Origin: Astrocystis sublimbata
Lineage: Eukaryota > Ascomycota > Sordariomycetes > Xylariales > Xylariaceae
Direction of reading: 5' to 3'
NCBI GenBank assembly: GCA_022453515.1
Contig: JAJNNY010000010.1
Span: 558,001-622,000, forward strand
Length of the DNA: 64,000 nt
Shown: in pieces, positions 10,891 to 21,675 of the stretch
How the letters are laid out: each line of letters starts with the position of its first letter
How positions within the stretch are numbered: position 1 is the first letter of the stretch
Notes under the pieces: generated by a model
What the model saw: the letters and a program-made list of their open reading frames with translations, nothing else
Told to the model about the DNA's origin: nothing
Database searches by the model: none
Translations under genes and position numbers: made by a program

Positions 10891-13800
10891 ATGGCGCAAG
10901 AGCAGCAGCTGGCTCTCGACCGACTCAAATTCATCACCAGGGACCTCAAGTCGAGGTGAGTTCCTCCGTCGCGTCTACAGCCCCTCCTCCATCGCCCCAA
11001 CCATCTCGACGCTGACCCATTCCGTATTGCTGACATTCAATCTCCTCGACAGGATTAGCGATGATGTCCGCAGGAGGGCTGCAGTTCAGCTTAGGGAGCT
11101 TGTGACTGCCTGCTACCGAGGTACGCTACTCACATTTCACACACTCGTTGAACCTCGCTTTCTGCCCATTTTGATCGCCATTGTGGTTGTGGTTGTCATC
11201 GCTGCTGACCATCCGTGTGTGCGCCTCTAGACTTCACCGCCGAGAACTTCCTCCCGTTTTACACGACAGTCAACAACGATATTACAAACTTAATAATTCA
11301 CGGCAATGACTCCTCCGACCGATTGGGCGGTGTCTACGCCCTCGACGCCCTTGTCGACTTTGACGGCGTCGATGTGACGGCCAAATATGCCCGGTTCACC
11401 GCCAGCCTCAAGGCCATCCTGCGCGGCAAGGATATAGTGCCCATGCAGTCTGCTGCGATCGCCTTGGGAAGGCTCTGCCGGCCTGGTGGATCTCTCATAT
11501 CCGAGCTTGTCGAATCCGAGGTCAAGACGGCCCTCGAATGGCTACAGTCCGATAGAATCGAAGAGAAGAGGTATAGTGCTGTGCTGGTTCTCCGCGAACT
11601 CGCCAGGAACGCACCGACTCTCATGTATGCCTACGTTGGCTTGATCTTCGACCTCATCTGGGTCGGTCTGCGAGATGTGCGCACCCTGATCCGAACCACG
11701 GCCGGTGAGACCGTCTGCGCTTGCTTCCGCATCATCCGAGAGCGCGACCAGGAAATGAAGCAGACCTGGATGAACAAGATGTACACTGAGACCTTGGTGG
11801 GCCTTAAAATGAATACCGTCGAGAGTGTGCATGCTTCTCTCTTGGTGCTGAGAGAACTGCTGGAGCAAGGTGGCATGTTTATGCAAGACCACTACCAGGA
11901 GGCCTGTGAGATCGTTTTCCGACACAAGGATCATCGCGACCCGACTATCCGGAAGACCGTTGTCCAACTCATACCAGATCTGGCAAACTATTCGCCTGCC
12001 GACTTTGCGCTTACGTACCTACACAAGTTCATGCTCTTCCTCTCTGGCATGCTGAAGAAGGCAGGAGAGCGTAACGACGCTTTCTTAGCCATCGGAAACA
12101 TAGCCAACTCCGTCAAGAGCGCAATTGCACCATACTTGGATGGTGTTCTGATCTATGTACGAGAAGGACTTAGTGTCCAGTCTCGCAAGCGAGGTTCCGT
12201 CGACCCCGTCTTTGACTGTATCAGCCGACTGGCCGTTGCTGTGGGCCAGACTCTAAGCAAGTACATGGAAGCCTTGCTAGACCCCATATTTGCTTGCGAG
12301 TTGACTCCAAAGCTCACCCAGGCTTTGGTCGATATGGCTTTCTATATTCCGCCCGTTAAAGCGACGATTCAGGAGAGGTTACTCGACATGCTTAGCAAGG
12401 TGTTGTGTGGGGAACCCTTCAAACCCCTCGGCGCGCCTACCCCAAACACCCTCTCTGCAGTTCCTATTATCCCGAAAGATGCCAAAGACCCTCAGATATA
12501 CGAGCTGCGAAAAGCAGAGATCAAGCTCGCGTTGAATACGCTGGGAAGCTTTGATTTCTCTGGCCATATCCTCAACGAGTTCGTCCGCGACGTCGCCATC
12601 AAGTATGTGGAGGACGACGATCCTGAAATTCGAGAGGCAGCGGCGCTGACTTGTTGTCAACTCTACGTTCGGGACCCAATCGTGAACCAGACCAGTCATC
12701 ATGCTCTCCAAGTTGTTGGCGACGTCATTGGGAAGCTGTTGACTGTTGGTGTATCTGATCCCCAGCCCAATATCCGGCGGACTGTCCTAGCTGCGTTGGA
12801 TGAGCGATTCGACCCTCATTTAGCCAAGGCGGAGAATATTCGTACCCTATTCTTTGCTCTGAACGATGAAGTTTTTAGCATCCGCGAGGTCTCCATTGCC
12901 ATCATAGGGCGCTTGGCCACCCATAACCCGGCCTATGTCATTCCCTCGCTGCGAAAGACACTCATCCAGATGCTTACCGAGCTAGAATTTTCCGACGTGG
13001 CGCGAAACAAGGAGGAGAGCGCGAAACTTCTTAGTCTCCTTGTGCAAAACGCACAGGGCTTGGTCAAACCCTACGTCGAGCCCATGATATCGGTTCTTTT
13101 GCCTAAGGCAAGCGAACCGAACCCTGCTGTTGCTGCCACCATCCTCAAAGCAATTGGTGAACTCGCGACCGTCGGCGGCGAGGATATGCTGCCCTACAAG
13201 AACAGACTCATGCCCATCATCATTGATGCTCTGCAAGACCAAGGTTCCATCGCAAAGCGTGAGGCGGCGCTTCATACACTTGGCCAGCTTGCTAGCAACT
13301 CCGGCTATGTCATAGACCCGTATCTTGAATACCCTCAACTTCTGGAATTACTACAAAACATCATTCGAGCCGAGCCACAGCGTAGCCCATTACGCCAGGA
13401 GACAATCAAGTTGATGGGCATTTTAGGAGCGCTGGATCCATACAGGCACCAGCAAGTTGAAGAGCGCACCCCTGATGCCAAGAGGAGCGTTGAGAACAAT
13501 AGGATGACGGATATATCATTGATGATGACCGGTCTCACTCCATCAAACAAGGAGTATTATCCAACAGTGGTGATCAATGCTTTGCTCAATCTTCTGAAGG
13601 AACAATCGCTAGCTCAACATCATGCTGCTGTTGTTGAAGCCATCATGAACATATTCCGAACTCTTGGAACAGAATGCGTGTCGTTCTTAGATCGAATCAT
13701 TCCCGCTTTTCTCTTGGTCATAAGAAGCTCGTCGCCTAACCGACTTGAATCCTACTTCAATCAGTTGGCAACTTTGGTTAGCATCGTGACGCAACACATC

Positions 13801-16800
13801 AGAACCTATCTGCCCTCTATCGTTGAAGTCTTACAAGAGTACTGGGATGTGTCTCCGTCTCTCCAAAGCACGATCTTATCACTAGTTGAGGCGATTTCAC
13901 GTTCGTTGGAAGGGGAGTTCAAGATCTACTTGGCAGGTTTATTACCACTGATGCTGGGCATTTTGGAAAAGGACGCGACTACTAAGCGGGTCCCGTCCGA
14001 AAAAGTGTTACATGCGCTTCTCGTCTTTGGATCCAGTGCCGAGGAGTACATGCACTTAATCATTCCCGTAATCGTGCGAACCTTTGAGAAGCAGGGCCAA
14101 CCGACATTTCTTCGAAAATCCGCTATCGACACGATCGGAAAGATTTCTAGGCAGGTCAACCTCAATGATTATGCCGCCAAGATAATCCATCCATTAGCAA
14201 GGATTCTCGCAGGGGGAGAGATATCTCTGCGCGTAACAGCACTGGATACACTCTGTGCCCTGATCCAGCAGTTAGGTAAAGACTATCTGCACTTTGCTGG
14301 CACCGTGAACAAAGTTCTTCAGAGTAGCCCGATTCAGCATCAGAACTATGATCTTCTGGTGTCTAAGCTGCAAAAGGGAGAGGTATTGCCGCAGGACTTG
14401 AGCTCGGAAGCGCGATTTCACGATCAACCCGACGAGCCTACCTTTGCTGAACTTGGCAACAAGAAGCTTGAGATGAACGCCATCCATCTCCAAGGTGCTT
14501 GGGACACGAGAGGCAAGTCCACAAAAGAGGATTGGCAAGAATGGCTACGAAGATTCAGTACTACGCTCCTGACGGAATCTCCCAATCATGCCTTGAGGGC
14601 CTGCGCCTCCCTGGCGAGCGTGTATCTTCCACTGGCGAGAGAGCTATTCAATTCGGCGTTTGTTTCTTGCTGGAGTGAACTCTACGAACAGTTTCAGGAT
14701 GAACTCATACAAAATATTGAGAACGCTATTCGATCTGAGAACGTTCCCCCAGACCTATTAGGACTTCTTCTCAACCTTGCGGAGTTCATGGAACATGATG
14801 ATAAAGCACTACCTATTGATATCAGGATTCTTGGAAGGGAGGCAGCTCGCTGTCATGCCTATGCTAAAGCGCTCCATTATAAAGAGTTGGAGTTTTTACA
14901 GGATCAAAGTGGACCTGCCGTGGAGGCTCTCATTGTCATCAACAACCAGCTTCAGCAATACGATGCCGCCATCGGTATTCTACGCAAAGCACAGTTGTAC
15001 AAGGAGGGCATCCAACTCCGAGAAACCTGGTTCGAGAAGCTAGAGCGATGGGAGGAAGCTCTCGACTTTTACAATAGGAGGGAGCGAGAGATCCCAGCGG
15101 ATCAACCCATTCCGATAGACGTTGTCATGGGCAAAATGCGATGTTTGCACGCACTCACAGAATGGGACGCGCTTGCTAATTTGGCAGGTAATACCTGGGC
15201 CAACTCAGCACCTGACGTCCAACGACGTATCGCCCCACTCGCAACAGCTGCCGCTTGGAGCTTGAGCAAGTGGGATGCCATGGAAATCTACCTCTCATCG
15301 ATGAGGCGAAACTCGCCGGACCGTTCGTTCTTTGGTGCCATTCTTGCCCTTCATCGTAACCAGTTCAGGGAGGCCACCACAAATATCCAGCAAGCACGCG
15401 AAGGACTGGATACGGAACTCAGTGCCCTCGTGAGCGAATCATATAACCGAGCTTACCAAGTCGTTGTCAGGGTGCAGATGCTCGCTGAACTCGAGGAACT
15501 CATCGTCTACAAGCAAGCAGATGACAAGAAAAAAGCGACCATGAGACGTACTTGGGAAATTCGACTGAAGGGTTGCCAGAGAAACGTCGAAGTATGGCAG
15601 CGCATGCTGAGACTTCGTGCGCTCGTTATCACCCCAGAAGAAAACATGCATATGTGGATCAAGTTTGCCAACCTTTGCAGGAAATCTGGGCGTATGGGAC
15701 TTGCCGAAAAGTCTCTAAAGCAGCTTGTAGGCGGCGACTACGATCTCGATACTATAATACCTTATTGGGGCCAGAACGGTCAACCCCAAGCTGCTTCGTC
15801 TAGGAGGATCCCCCCCCAGGTCGTCTACGCCGTTCTCAAATTCTATTGGGAGCACGGTCAATCAGGGAACGCACGCCAGGCTGGCAACGCTGAAAAGACT
15901 CTGTTCTGCCTCCGTAAGTTTACGACCGACACTGTACAGCGTCTGGAAATGGCCCGAGCCTCCATGCAATCCGTCCCCAACGGCATGGAAGCGATGGGTG
16001 ACTACAGTTTCCATAATGGAGTAGATCCTGGTCTGGCCCATCTTAGATCCCACAAAGAATTCCAAGAGCAAACCGTGCTCTTGGCTAAGTGTTTCCTGCG
16101 ACAAGGCGAGTGGCAAGTTGCCCTGAATAAGAGCGACTGGCAGCACCCAAGTGTCCAGGATATCCTCGCTTCCTACTCGAAAGCTACGCAATACAACCCC
16201 AAATGGTACAAGGCGTGGCATGCCTGGGCGCTGGCCAATTTCGAGATCGTTCAGGCTCTCACCTCGCCAACCGATCGCAAGACCGCAAGACCCGATCCCA
16301 ACATGGTGATCAGTCACGTTGTTCCAGCTGTGACGGGCTTCTTCAAGTCCATCGCCTTATCCTCAGGCAGCTCTTTGCAGGATACTCTCCGGTTACTAAC
16401 GCTCTGGTTTGCTCATGGAGGCAGTAGCGAGGTGAATGCAGCGGTTGTGCAGGGCGCCGGTACCGTTAGTGTCGATACTTGGCTCGAGGTGATCCCGCAA
16501 CTGATTGCACGTATCAATCAACAGAACCCACGGGTGCGGCAATCTATTCACAACCTACTCGCTGACGTTGGCCGTAACCACCCTCAGGCGCTGGTTTATC
16601 CTCTGACTGTTGCTATGAAATCAGTACAGAATTCGAGAAAGTCTAAATCTGCTGCCCTTATTATGGACAGCATGAGGCAGCACAGTGCTAAACTCGTCGA
16701 GCAGGCAGATATCGTCAGTCATGAGCTGATCCGTGTGGCGGTGCTATGGCACGAACAGTGGTACGAGGGCATTGAGGAGGCTTCGCGGCTTTGGTTCAGT

Positions 16801-18489
16801 GACCACAACGCCGAAGGCATGTTCGCTACCTTGAACCCGTTGCATGAACAACTCGAAAGAGGTCCCGAAACTCTGCGTGAAATCAGTTTCGCGCAGACCT
16901 TCGGCCGAGATCTTACAGAAGCACGAGAGTGGTGCCGGCAGTATGAACAGACTCAAGATGTCACCGATATGAACGGTGCGTGGGATTTGTACTACCAGGT
17001 GTTCCGTCGTATCGGCCGACAGCTGCCGCAGATGACGTCTCTCGAACTCACGTATTGCTCTCCCAAGCTTCTTCAAGCTAGGGACCTGGACCTGGCCGTG
17101 CCCGGTACTTATCGCAGTGGAGCTCCTATTGTGCAGATTATCTCTTTCGAGACTACATTCAGCGTCATCAACTCGAAGCAACGGCCTAGGAAACTCAACA
17201 TGACAGGTAGCGACGGCAGCCCTTACGCTTTCCTTCTCAAGGGTCACGAAGATATTCGTCAAGACGAACGTGTGATGCAGCTCTTTGGTTTGTGCAATAC
17301 ATTGCTTGCCAACGATTCAGAATGTTACAAGAGGCACCTTGGTATTCAGCGATATCCAGCAATCCCCTTGAGTCAAAACTCTGGTCTATTTGGATGGGTT
17401 CCCAATAGTGATACTCTTCACGTACTCATAAGGGAGTACCGTGAAAGTAGAAAGATTCTGCTCAACATCGAGCACCGCATCATGTTGCAAATGGCACCAG
17501 ACTATGACAATCTTACCCTCATGCAAAAGGTCGAAGTCTTTGGCTACGCTTTAGACAACACAACCGGCCAAGACTTGTACCGCGTTCTCTGGCTTAAGAG
17601 CAAGAGCTCTGAAGCATGGTTGGAGCGACGCACCAACTATACACGCAGTCTGGGTGTCATGAGCATGGTTGGCTACATCCTAGGTCTGGGCGATCGTCAC
17701 CCTAGCAATCTCATGCTTGACAGAATCACGGGCAAGATCATCCACATCGACTTCGGCGACTGTTTCGAGGTGGCCATGAAGCGCGACAAATATCCGGAGC
17801 GGGTTCCCTTCCGCCTCACGCGTATGCTTACATATGCGATGGAGGTCAGCAATATCGAGGGAAGCTTCCGCATCACCTGCGAACATGTCATGCGTGTGCT
17901 CAGGGAGAACAAAGAGAGTGTGATGGCTGTGCTAGAAGCTGTAAGTTCAACTTTTAACTATCATACTCTACTCGCCCGTCTTTCATCGATACTAACAAAT
18001 GATGTTTACGTACAGTTCATCCACGATCCTCTCCTGACTTGGCGTCTGACCAACCGTGCCTCTCTCTGCGGTCCCAACTTCCACTCAGAGCGCGAAGCCG
18101 CTCTCGGAGCTGGCACGCAGCACGGTCGGAGACAGTCCATATTGGAGTCGGAGCATCCACCGTCAGAATTGCTCGCTCAAATGCAGATGGGGCCCGAGTC
18201 CGTGCAACAGAATGGCAACGGCAACGCAGCCGCCCCAGCCGCCCGTGGCCGCGCACGCACGAATTCCAGCATCATGAACGGTCCCGTGCCCGTCGACGGC
18301 GAGGCGGCGGAGATCCAGAATGCGCGCGCGTTGGAGGTTCTGGACAGAGTGAACCAGAAACTGACGGGCAGAGACTTCAAGCCGAACGAGGAGCTGGAAG
18401 TCGTCAAGCAGGTCAACAAGCTCATCCTGGAGGCGACGAAGTTGGAGAATCTGTGCCAGCACTACATAGGATGGTGTTCTTTCTGGTAA
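10891..18489 (+). CDS. tor: Serine/threonine protein kinase TOR
   Basis: Four exons: 10891-10955, 11053-11120, 11231-17940, 18016-18489 (about 2438 aa, normal length). The third intron (17941-18015) is 75 nt, in phase 0 and stop-free; removing it restores VLEA-FIHDPLLTW. The order is HEAT repeats (about 1-1250), FAT domain, FRB domain (about 1874-1972) with ELIRVAVLWHEQW, PI3K-like kinase domain with KGHEDIRQDER, catalytic GLGDRHPSN (about 2198) and HIDFGD (about 2216), and a C-terminal FATC ending HYIGWCSFW. The Ser in EEASRLWF, equivalent to the residue whose mutation gives rapamycin resistance in yeast and human TOR, is present, so FKBP12-rapamycin binding is expected. TOR is the catalytic core of TORC1 and TORC2 and couples nutrients to growth and autophagy. 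Filamentous fungi usually carry one copy. Confidence 0.97.
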
Positions 18490-19597: not shown

Positions 19598-21675
19598 TTA
19601 AATTTCATTCTCGGTATGCACAATATGCTGTCGAATAACAGGGACAACGCCATCCATGCCCAAGCTTCCGCGCCGAGGCTCCGCATGCTGCGCCTCCAGC
19701 GACGTCTGCGCGACCGTCGGGCTGGTCCCTGTCACAGCTTGCGACTTCACCGGCACGCTTGGCCCAGGTTGTTTGGAGGCAGCCTGTCGTGTGCCCGGCG
19801 ATGATAGGATGCCAGCGAAGCGCGACGTCTGGGATGCGAGGTTGGACGCTGTGCTCTTGGATGTCTCGGCTACGTTCCCCGTCGCTTGCTGTGCGGATGA
19901 CGAGACATAGGTAGCTCCATCTGCGGTTTTCTGCGCGCCACTTCCGATGGCGTTTTGTGTGTTGGACGCCATGTTCGACGCAGTTTGTCCGGTGGCTGAC
20001 GCAGCGCTGCTCACGGCGTTCTGCGTGCCGGATGCCATATTGGAAGCGGTTTGTCCAGTTGTCGTAAAGGCGGTGCCAACGGCATCCCGTGTACCGGATC
20101 CCATGTCAGACGCCGTCTGCCCGGTCGCTGATGTCGCGTTGCTGACGACATCACGTGTCTTGGATGCAAGATTCGAAGCTCCCTCCGCTGCGCTCCCTGC
20201 GGCCTGTTGTGTGCTGTATGCCATGTTGGAAACGCCTTGTCCGGTCGCTGTTGCTGCGTTACCAGCGGCGTCGTAGGTGTTAGATGCCAAGTTTGAGGCA
20301 CCCTGCTGTGTACTCCTTGCAGCATTTCCGGCGGCGTCGCGTGTATTAGAGGCCAGATTTGAAGCCCCTTGCGCGGCGTTTCCCATAGCCTGTTGTGTGC
20401 CAGACGCCAAGTCGGAAGCAGTCTGCCCCGTCGCTGATGCAGCGTTACCCGCGACGTGCTGAGTGTTGACTGCCAGATCCGAGGCTCCTTGTTGAGATTT
20501 GGCTGCGGCGATGCCAGCGGCTTCTTGAGTGGTAGCTGCGGCGTTTGAAGCACCCCTTTTGGTCTTGGATGCTAAGTTGCCTGCGGCTTGTTGCGCGTTG
20601 GCCGACATGTTCGATGCAGAACTGCGCACACAGTAACTCTTCGTTAGACACGTGTTTTTACGATTTCGAAGCCAGTGGTCTTTTTATACGTACTTCTGAG
20701 CTCTTGTAGCATATTGGCCAGCAGCATGTTGACCCCTGTGTGACAGATCCGCTGCCTTCACACTTGCATTGTGAGCCATCTCGCGGCAGGCTGGGGTGAA
20801 TAGCAGAGGGACAAAGTAGGCCAAACTGAGACCGAGGACTTCGAGGCTGAATGGGGAGAGCAGCTTGATCAACCAGAACAGTGTTGTCAGGCCGGCGAAA
20901 GCCTGTTGTTATACGTTAGCATGATTTGACAGTAGTGGCAATAGGAGATAATTATTCACTCACACCAAAGGACTTGCCCAAATCCTCGGCATACATGATC
21001 TTTTGGACTTCGACGACGAGATACTGGACAAGGTCGTGGACGTCCTTGAGTGTCGCATTGAGTATTGGCTCCGGCACTCTCTTGTAGTCTGGTCGCATGC
21101 GGGTCATGAAGTCGTTCTTGGTAGAGCGGCTGACGAGAGAGGTGACAGAGGTTACTGAAGTATCAAATGTGAGTTCTCGCGTCTTCCGTTAAGGTTCAAG
21201 GACTGCATACCTCCAAGAGCAGTTGCAGCCATCTTCAGGAGCAGCTGAGTACAGCGAAAGTAGTGCATGCCGGCAAGGAGTCCTAGGAGCCCAAGGTAGG
21301 ACCCAACAGTACGGGCTGGGTCCTCCCACTTCAGGATACGTTAGCAATACACTTTGAAGATGCGAGGTCTGTATGCGTAACTCACGGAGAGATATTTGTA
21401 AAGGCTGTCGGTGTGTGCTACAAGGCGTCAACAAGCTCTCAACATATCATGATAAGACTTGTCGTACCCATGACTTTTCCCAAAGCTCCTTTTCCCACTG
21501 CCGGGTCATTTGGATGGAGTCTGCCATGCAGAGAGTTCTCAATAGCCGCAGCGACTAGACAAGACAATTGTCAGCTGAGACGATATGGTATTGATAGGGT
21601 TGGGTGTCTACCTTGATCCGGATCTTGTTCGCTGTCAGCCCGAATGGGCATGACCACGTAAGTTGGGTCACTCAT
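19598..21675 (-). CDS. rtn1: Reticulon-like ER membrane-shaping protein with 11-mer repeat tail
   Basis: Seven exons in transcript order: 21675-21612, 21554-21468, 21417-21386, 21328-21211, 21154-20964, 20902-20694, 20621-19598 (about 574 aa). All junctions are GT-AG and in phase. Residues about 53-205 form a fungal reticulon homology domain: DSLYKYLSWEDP, a first hydrophobic hairpin (GSYLGLLGLLAG), the MRPDYKRVPE linker, LKDVHDLVQY and a second hairpin (FWLIKLLSPFSLEVLGL). Reticulons wedge into the outer leaflet and shape ER tubules. What is odd is the C-terminal half: residues 235-512 are 13 gapless units of 22 or 18 residues, each made of 11-residue motifs of the type xAxNxAxxTxx. It ends in a Pro/Ser/Val-rich tail. 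I infer a long amphipathic helix added to a membrane-curving protein. The start MSDPTYVV is the first ATG in frame. Confidence 0.9.
19787..20620 (-). repeat. Thirteen tandem units (66 or 54 nt) in the reticulon gene
   Basis: In the last exon 278 consecutive codons divide exactly into 11 units of 22 codons and two of 18 (the 4th and 7th). Representative units are GASNLASNTRDAAGNAAR(STQQ), TASDLASGTQQAMGNAAQ and TASNMASGTQNAVSSAAS(ATGQ). Each 22-mer is two 11-mers; the 18-mers lack the last four residues of the second 11-mer. Units are diverged in DNA but constant in register. Confidence 0.92.

Follow-up and report, generated by a model that had tools for sequence, protein, structure and literature searches.

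A reticulon of Astrocystis sublimbata with a long tandem array of amphipathic 11-residue repeats

The window, that is, the whole stretch of 64,000 nucleotides analysed (Astrocystis sublimbata, contig JAJNNY010000010.1, positions 558,001 to 622,000 of the forward strand), contained a reticulon gene on the minus strand with the following features, given in window positions.

19598..21675, minus strand: coding part of the reticulon gene (574 aa, seven exons), spliced by hand from donor and acceptor sites
21675-21612, 21554-21468, 21417-21386 and 21328-21211, minus strand: exons 1-4
21154-20964, 20902-20694 and 20621-19598, minus strand: exons 5-7
20795..21391, minus strand: reticulon homology domain (PF02453), residues 60-200, interrupted by introns 3, 4 and 5
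20694..20758, minus strand: unit 0 of the array, residues 213-234, read from the protein; the final base of its last codon is at 20621, beyond intron 6
20622..20693, minus strand: intron 6 (GT...AG, 72 bases), separating the reticulon exons from the repeat exon
19787..20620, minus strand: 13 in-register units (11 of 22 aa and two of 18 aa), residues 235-512
20369..20422, minus strand: first 18-residue unit, residues 301-318, where X. acuta has four extra residues in the alignment
20183..20236, minus strand: second 18-residue unit, residues 363-380
19598..19786, minus strand: non-repetitive C-terminal end, residues 513-574, and stop codon

The convergent neighbour of the gene was a frame of 2426 residues on the plus strand (11209-18489), which reads as a TOR-type kinase from its translation (TOR-like frame).

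The six introns of the reticulon gene measured 50-72 bases each (353 in total) and had GT...AG ends, the acceptor of intron 3 being the less usual AAG. The original prediction had joined the repeat exon to the reticulon exons. The X. acuta orthologue P0001 aligned without a gap over residues 213-314, crossing the intron-6 junction at residue 234, and a gene-model artefact at this junction was rejected on that alignment. Some homologues came from short contigs (1579 bases for P0015, a protein of 445 aa, and no more than 1586 bases for P0021, one of 455 aa); to judge by their lengths, these contigs are too short for introns like the six of this gene and would be transcript-derived, or else their genes have fewer introns. 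The ungapped alignment and the short contigs, the latter as inference from lengths, therefore supported the joining of the two parts. Residues 513-574 were probably disordered, since the model gave the six final ten-residue blocks pLDDT averages of 37-44, a low confidence.

The reticulon homology domain on which the prediction was built was matched above its curated Pfam cut-off (PF02453, E 6.8e-15, 55.8 bits against 31.8), and all 64 homologues of the alignment set matched PF02453 at E ≤ 1. The nearest proteins among the matches listed were Xylaria reticulons; identity to X. acuta P0001 was 63% over residues 1-235 and 60% over 362 aligned columns. Two reticulons were found in the genome. The other, on contig 179, was 34% identical to the repeat-tailed reticulon over residues 71-162, and had 58 residues whose hydrophobic moment was highest at 97.5 degrees, a value attained in 2 of 300 shuffles. 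In the repeat-tailed reticulon the 11/3 stripe started at residue 213, in the amphipathic position after the second hairpin.

The array occupied 278 codons of the last exon, which divided exactly into 22, 22, 22, 18, 22, 22, 18, 22, 22, 22, 22, 22 and 22 residues; the recount agreed with the 11 units of 22 and two of 18 first proposed. The count of 13 units held for the last exon only: residues 213-234 form one more in-phase unit, mostly in the preceding exon, and the array therefore had 14. The full array spanned 300 residues and started at residue 213, the Pfam reticulon match ending at 200. Identity between the 13 last-exon units averaged 46.0%, against 12.6% in shuffles (maximum 15.6%, n = 2000). 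The proposed alignment of 11-mers as xAxNxAxxTxx was borne out by position counts over these units, both in the first half-units (A2 12/13, N4 9/13, A6 10/13, T9 11/13) and in the second (A2 7/13, N4 7/13, A6 10/13, T9 8/11). Autocorrelation of the tail was highest at lag 22 (0.441, z 16.3), followed by lags 44, 40, 11 (z 7.0) and 33 (2000 shuffles). Tandem Repeats Finder (score 40) reported no DNA tandem repeat in the array region, and the repeat was therefore detectable at the protein level only.

Among the 78 pairs of the 13 last-exon units, dN was lower than dS in 51 of the 53 computable pairs (medians over computable pairs: dN 0.47, dS 1.43), and the remaining 25 were assumed to be saturated. 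Where two units shared a residue they used the same codon in 35.7% of 743 cases, with 32.3% expected from the codon usage of the tail. Codon positions agreed between units in 38% (third position) and 68% (second position). Synonymous sites between units thus look near saturation while the protein pattern persists. Together with the blank Tandem Repeats Finder result, this indicates that the units were duplicated long ago; a recent expansion by slippage was rejected on the same two grounds. Selection would appear, from these substitution patterns, to have preserved the protein pattern of the units.

The tail hydrophobic moment, scanned over 40-180 degrees, peaked at 98.6 degrees (0.225), with 98.2 expected for an 11/3 helix. 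In 500 shuffles the maximum was 0.093 at 98-99 degrees and 0.119 over 21 tabulated angles, so that the 11-residue (11/3) periodicity inferred earlier from the letters was found far above shuffled sequences. On a single helix of 98.6 degrees per residue all 14 units were directed within 74-129 degrees, although the unit at residues 257-278 had nearly no stripe (moment 0.06). At exactly 98.18 degrees the stripe direction drifted by about 135 degrees along the tail, and it was coherent at the fitted 98.6. The phase argument from the four-residue skips alone is weak: in simulation, skips of 3, 7 and 8 residues did about equally well as phase-keepers. The apolar face was mostly Ala and Thr with few large residues, and Asn and Gly were common in the tail.

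When the 13 last-exon units were placed on a helical wheel, positions 1, 5, 9, 2 and 6 (0-131 degrees) formed the apolar sector, with mean hydropathies of 0.23-0.97 and none of the 24 charges; unit 0 had a lysine at position 1. Nine of the 13 positive charges were at border positions 10 and 8, and all 11 negative charges were mid polar face (Fisher p = 5e-4). With unit 0 included, the 16 positive and 12 negative charges still lay at different distances from the centre of the apolar sector (p = 0.001). Positive charges at the borders and negative charges mid polar face correspond to the class A arrangement of apolipoproteins. Among the matches listed, negative charges were farther from the apolar centre in 126 of 136 proteins having at least four of each charge, and 416 of 2968 charges lay within 60 degrees of that centre, against one third expected. 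Control helices from the TOR-like frame had a milder version of this charge pattern, with means of 97 and 113 degrees and p values between 0.006 and 0.07 over four settings, and the charge layout therefore counts as support, not proof.

A further 11-residue array was observed on contig 115 of the genome, at L008:962-2160, in what is a mitochondrial ATP synthase subunit g (PF04718, E 1.5e-19). Upstream of the subunit g domain, apparently in the same gene, exons read by eye encoded about 190 residues of 11-mers of the KAAEATKEGAS type, for which the moment was highest at 98.4 degrees; charge asymmetry in this array was not significant (p = 0.27 and 0.19). ATP synthase subunit g is located at curved crista edges. 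To go by its sequence, subunit g may be a second membrane-bending protein of this genome with a long 11/3 helix.

When the last exon was modelled by itself in AlphaFold (mean pLDDT 67), residues 236-398, 404-507 and 509-515 came out as helices. Confidence per block in this model was 66-89, with a dip to 51-60 near residue 400 and values of about 40 from residue 513; it comes from a single sequence, and Ala-rich repeats favour helix calls. The tail, proposed earlier as a helix, was thus not predicted to be fully disordered, and the helical prediction stopped about at the end of the repeats. The model of X. bambusicola P0007 (64 homologues, mean pLDDT 59) had helices at 68-87, 90-114, 162-181 and 184-202, which as predicted are consistent with two hairpins. 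Directly after the hairpins came a helix of 54 residues (204-257; pLDDT about 75-87, and 55 in the last block), then a helix of low confidence (265-333) and nothing reliable beyond, most of the distal tail having pLDDT < 50. A tail folding on lipid alone would look like this in a model, and so would a disordered tail. Foldseek comparison of the P0007 model with the PDB gave no match at E ≤ 0.001 (best E 5.8).

Reticulon tails were surveyed in the products of two homologue searches, the first returning 27 proteins within length limits of 0.55-1.75 × 574 aa, and the second, with a 323-aa relative as query to admit shorter proteins, contributing the best 120 of 181 matches. The analysed set contained 140 distinct listed proteins and the repeat-tailed reticulon (n = 141). 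Exclusion of three tails shorter than 40 residues (P0063, P0068 and P0089) left 138, of which 137 belonged to homologues. Proteins of Fusarium, Colletotrichum and Exophiala were numerous in the set, and its counts are not independent. Among the matches listed, the strongest period over the first 110 residues fell at 94-104 degrees in 127 of the 138 tails, 102 of these 127 reaching the 5% shuffle level; whole tails gave a weaker result in some cases (114 of the 138 peaking at 96-102 degrees). A clear repeat period (z ≥ 4) was found in 75 of the 130 listed tails of at least 100 residues. These periods were on near-integer 11/3 turns (11, 15, 18, 22, 26, 29, 33, 37 or 40) in 69 of the 75, with 27% expected.

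Within this listed set the repeat-tailed reticulon had the longest phase-coherent stretch of the 141 (253 residues; family median 116, shuffled tails median 65 and maximum 110, TOR-like frame 150). It also had the lowest charge over the first 110 tail residues of the 138 tails listed (9.1%; median 20.9%). In the membrane-domain tree it grouped with Xylaria longipes (support 0.89), which has a tail of 124 residues vs. 361 in this reticulon. Two gaps in the alignment with X. acuta would fit in-phase lengthening steps: one, of 22 residues, immediately precedes unit 0, and the other, of four residues, coincides with the first of the 18-residue units.

With 127 of the 138 tails peaking at 94-104 degrees, the amphipathic 11-residue pattern that follows the membrane domain is a family trait among the filamentous ascomycetes sampled. 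The description of a reticulon "fused" to a repeat domain was not upheld: most homologues examined have tails of equal period, which argues against a foreign domain fused onto a reticulon, and the array would instead be an expansion of the protein's own C-terminal amphipathic helix. In the simplest history, the amphipathic helix of an ordinary reticulon would have grown by successive additions that kept its phase. A search of the tail against 5.8 billion proteins, in which the 7994 candidates sharing most words were scored within limited lengths, returned at least three reticulons at E ≤ 0.001; given that number of candidates and those limits, tails on other proteins may have gone undetected.

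Three kinds of irregularity were noted in the family. P0008 (Xylaria arbuscula, 604 aa) had a similar tail followed by unrelated sequence; it is probably two genes merged in annotation, and was kept in all family counts. In the tail of P0015, read by eye, adjacent units of 18 and 15 residues summed to 33, or nine 11/3 turns, another way of keeping phase. P0121, P0128 and P0027 bore names like gas vesicle protein, ATP synthase membrane subunit b/b' and DivIVA; these names seem to have been drawn by the repeat tail, and automatic naming of the family can mislead.

The best explanation is that the C-terminal amphipathic helix of a reticulon was expanded in tandem to give the tail, which probably lies on the cytosolic side of ER tubules and would contribute curvature and a weak, long-range binding (probability about 0.6). 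The two membrane hairpins would anchor the reticulon in ER tubules, with the tail loose in the cytosol. The tail could then attach itself like a zipper to the cytosolic leaflet, forming a weakly hydrophobic helix of great length (some 45 nm if unbroken), and the sum of its many weak contacts would give wedge-type curvature and slower protein movement. Helices might lie side by side, held by a polar face rich in Asn, Gln, Ser and Thr. We infer such an ER-anchored, length-adjustable leaflet helix from the need of REEP and Rtn1 for their helices and from the composition and packing of perilipin 4, to which the tail is close in composition. Among the findings against this reading, the tail helix was weaker than that of the contig-179 reticulon (moment 0.234 vs. 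0.364, hydrophobicity 0.12 vs. 0.19, charge 8.6% vs. 19%), and the polar and charged residues through which side-by-side packing of perilipin 4 was proposed, in the part of PMC8064757 drawn on here, include charges that are scarce in the tail. More tentatively, filamentous ascomycetes might have evolved a reticulon that combines an ER anchor and a perilipin-type coat, its tail length tuned by in-phase 11-residue steps; the coat, helical, adjustable and slow to move, would wrap ER tubules or hold ER against droplets, and would set tubule width.

By analogy, contact of the tail with lipid droplets is possible, and a perilipin-like use, with the tail binding droplets and the protein tethering or wrapping ER around them, would agree with a moment and composition near those of perilipin 4 and with a sub-threshold Pfam match to ApoLp-III (E 0.0074, 16.9 bits against a cut-off of 36.3). 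Membrane-anchored perilipin 3 is said to rearrange ER around droplets, but its 11-mer domain alone formed no ER domains (excerpts of PMC10350540). This use was considered unlikely, since the three Pfam matches up to E 1 included no perilipin family (PAT domain or C-terminal four-helix bundle), the hairpins may retain the protein on ER, and charge was below that of perilipin 4, in which droplet targeting was lost on substitution of two lysines in each repeat, except where hydrophobicity had been increased (PMC5889406, in the sections consulted). Rather less probable was a stress protectant, that is, an ER-tethered LEA-like tail that would be unfolded in the hydrated state and turn helical on membranes only on drying or freezing. 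An 11-residue sequence rich in Ala, Gln, Asn, Ser and Thr, of low charge and low hydrophobicity, would suit that role, as would the variation of tail length among homologues; yet Pfam gave no LEA family for this reticulon up to E 1, and the pattern directly extends the reticulon amphipathic helix, the contig-179 reticulon having the same period in its 58 residues.

The long predicted helix, with some homologues weakly matching coiled-coil models of the DivIVA type, could also belong to a rod for helical oligomerisation or partner binding that does not bind lipid. An apolar face of Ala and Thr with few large residues would make a poor coiled-coil core, and the moment maximum was at 98.6 degrees, not near the heptad value of 102.9, with 101 and 102 degrees at shuffle level; a rod of this kind is improbable. 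A curli-like beta repeat, in which 22-residue units of Gln, Asn, Gly and Ala would stack as a beta helix or functional amyloid, was raised by the match of P0007 to the NCBIfam curli minor subunit model (E 1.5e-6, 28 bits against a cut-off of 165; P0001, E 0.12). Pfam gave no curlin family up to E 1, the repeat exon had no NCBIfam match and was predicted all-helical, and the moment at 180 degrees (0.094) was high but within the shuffle range (maximum 0.119), with no significant signal at 160-180 degrees. The curli-like repeat was set aside as very improbable on the Pfam result, the moment spectrum and the helical prediction.

A C-terminal amphipathic helix is a known requirement of reticulons. 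With the tail read as an expanded reticulon helix, the reticulon family would be one in which the amphipathic helix varies greatly in length and repeat steps hold its apolar side in one direction. The family would then be a natural series relating helix length to membrane affinity, mobility and ER tubule curvature, and it raises the question of whether long, weak helices of the perilipin type could have their origin in a helix that shapes the ER. Repeat periods on integer 11/3 turns are a test applicable to other reticulons.

Yop1, REEP5 and Schizosaccharomyces Rtn1 likewise have an amphipathic helix straight after the second hairpin of the reticulon domain, according to the passages of PMC7835363 on these proteins. 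There, the REEP helix was required for tubular networks and the Rtn1 helix for exclusive localisation to ER tubules, and helix peptides of both chiralities worked, which made lipid the likely target. The ALPS helix of ArfGAP1 failed to replace the Rtn1 helix (same source), so not every amphipathic helix suits the job, a point against the preferred reading of the tail. Unlike the reticulon and REEP helix, the array described here has 300 residues in 22-residue tandem units. Podospora anserina RTN1 is also a filamentous-ascomycete reticulon, reported as the single one of its species; it was found in peripheral and apical ER and was required for meiotic spindle dynamics, and the main text of PMC8546617 makes no mention of repeats in it. 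The statement of the original prediction that no reticulon with such a tail had been described agreed with the full-text literature searches, which covered few subscription papers and listed no paper on a reticulon with an 11-residue array.

Alpha-synuclein and apolipoproteins A1, A4 and E have 11-residue amphipathic repeats as in the tail (PMC5889406, in part). Sequence matches to synuclein, apolipoproteins and ApoLp-III were weak, below curated cut-offs or at E > 0.05, and gave no sign of common descent. Pfam gave no synuclein family for the repeat-tailed reticulon up to E 1, and the best alpha-synuclein match in the PDB had E 0.055. Of the 64 homologues, 19 matched the Apolipoprotein profile at E ≤ 1 (21.1 bits against a cut-off of 90 in the best case, E 0.00027), as many as matched the unrelated family YtxH; these Apolipoprotein matches carry little weight because the 64 homologues match 61 families at that level.

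The closest likeness in composition was to perilipin 4, whose 11-residue array is unfolded in solution and binds through many weak contacts, scaling with length (PMC5889406, in the sections consulted). Perilipin 4 and the repeat tail had moments of 0.257 and 0.234, the averaging differing from that of Table 1 of the same paper, and the tail was as low as the weakest lipid-binding helix of that table. Hydrophobic residues made up 0.35 vs. 0.36, aromatic residues 0.002 vs. 0.018, and charged residues 0.15 vs. 0.086. Both have a very long 11-residue array in higher-order units (33 in perilipin 4, 22 here) with small apolar residues, few aromatic residues and a low moment. As far as those sections describe it, the perilipin 4 array is without insertions or deletions, whereas the reticulon tail has two four-residue skips, is anchored by a reticulon, has fewer charges and matches no perilipin family. 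The kinds of component are thus known, and their length, tandem order and family-wide register are undescribed so far as the literature searches reach.
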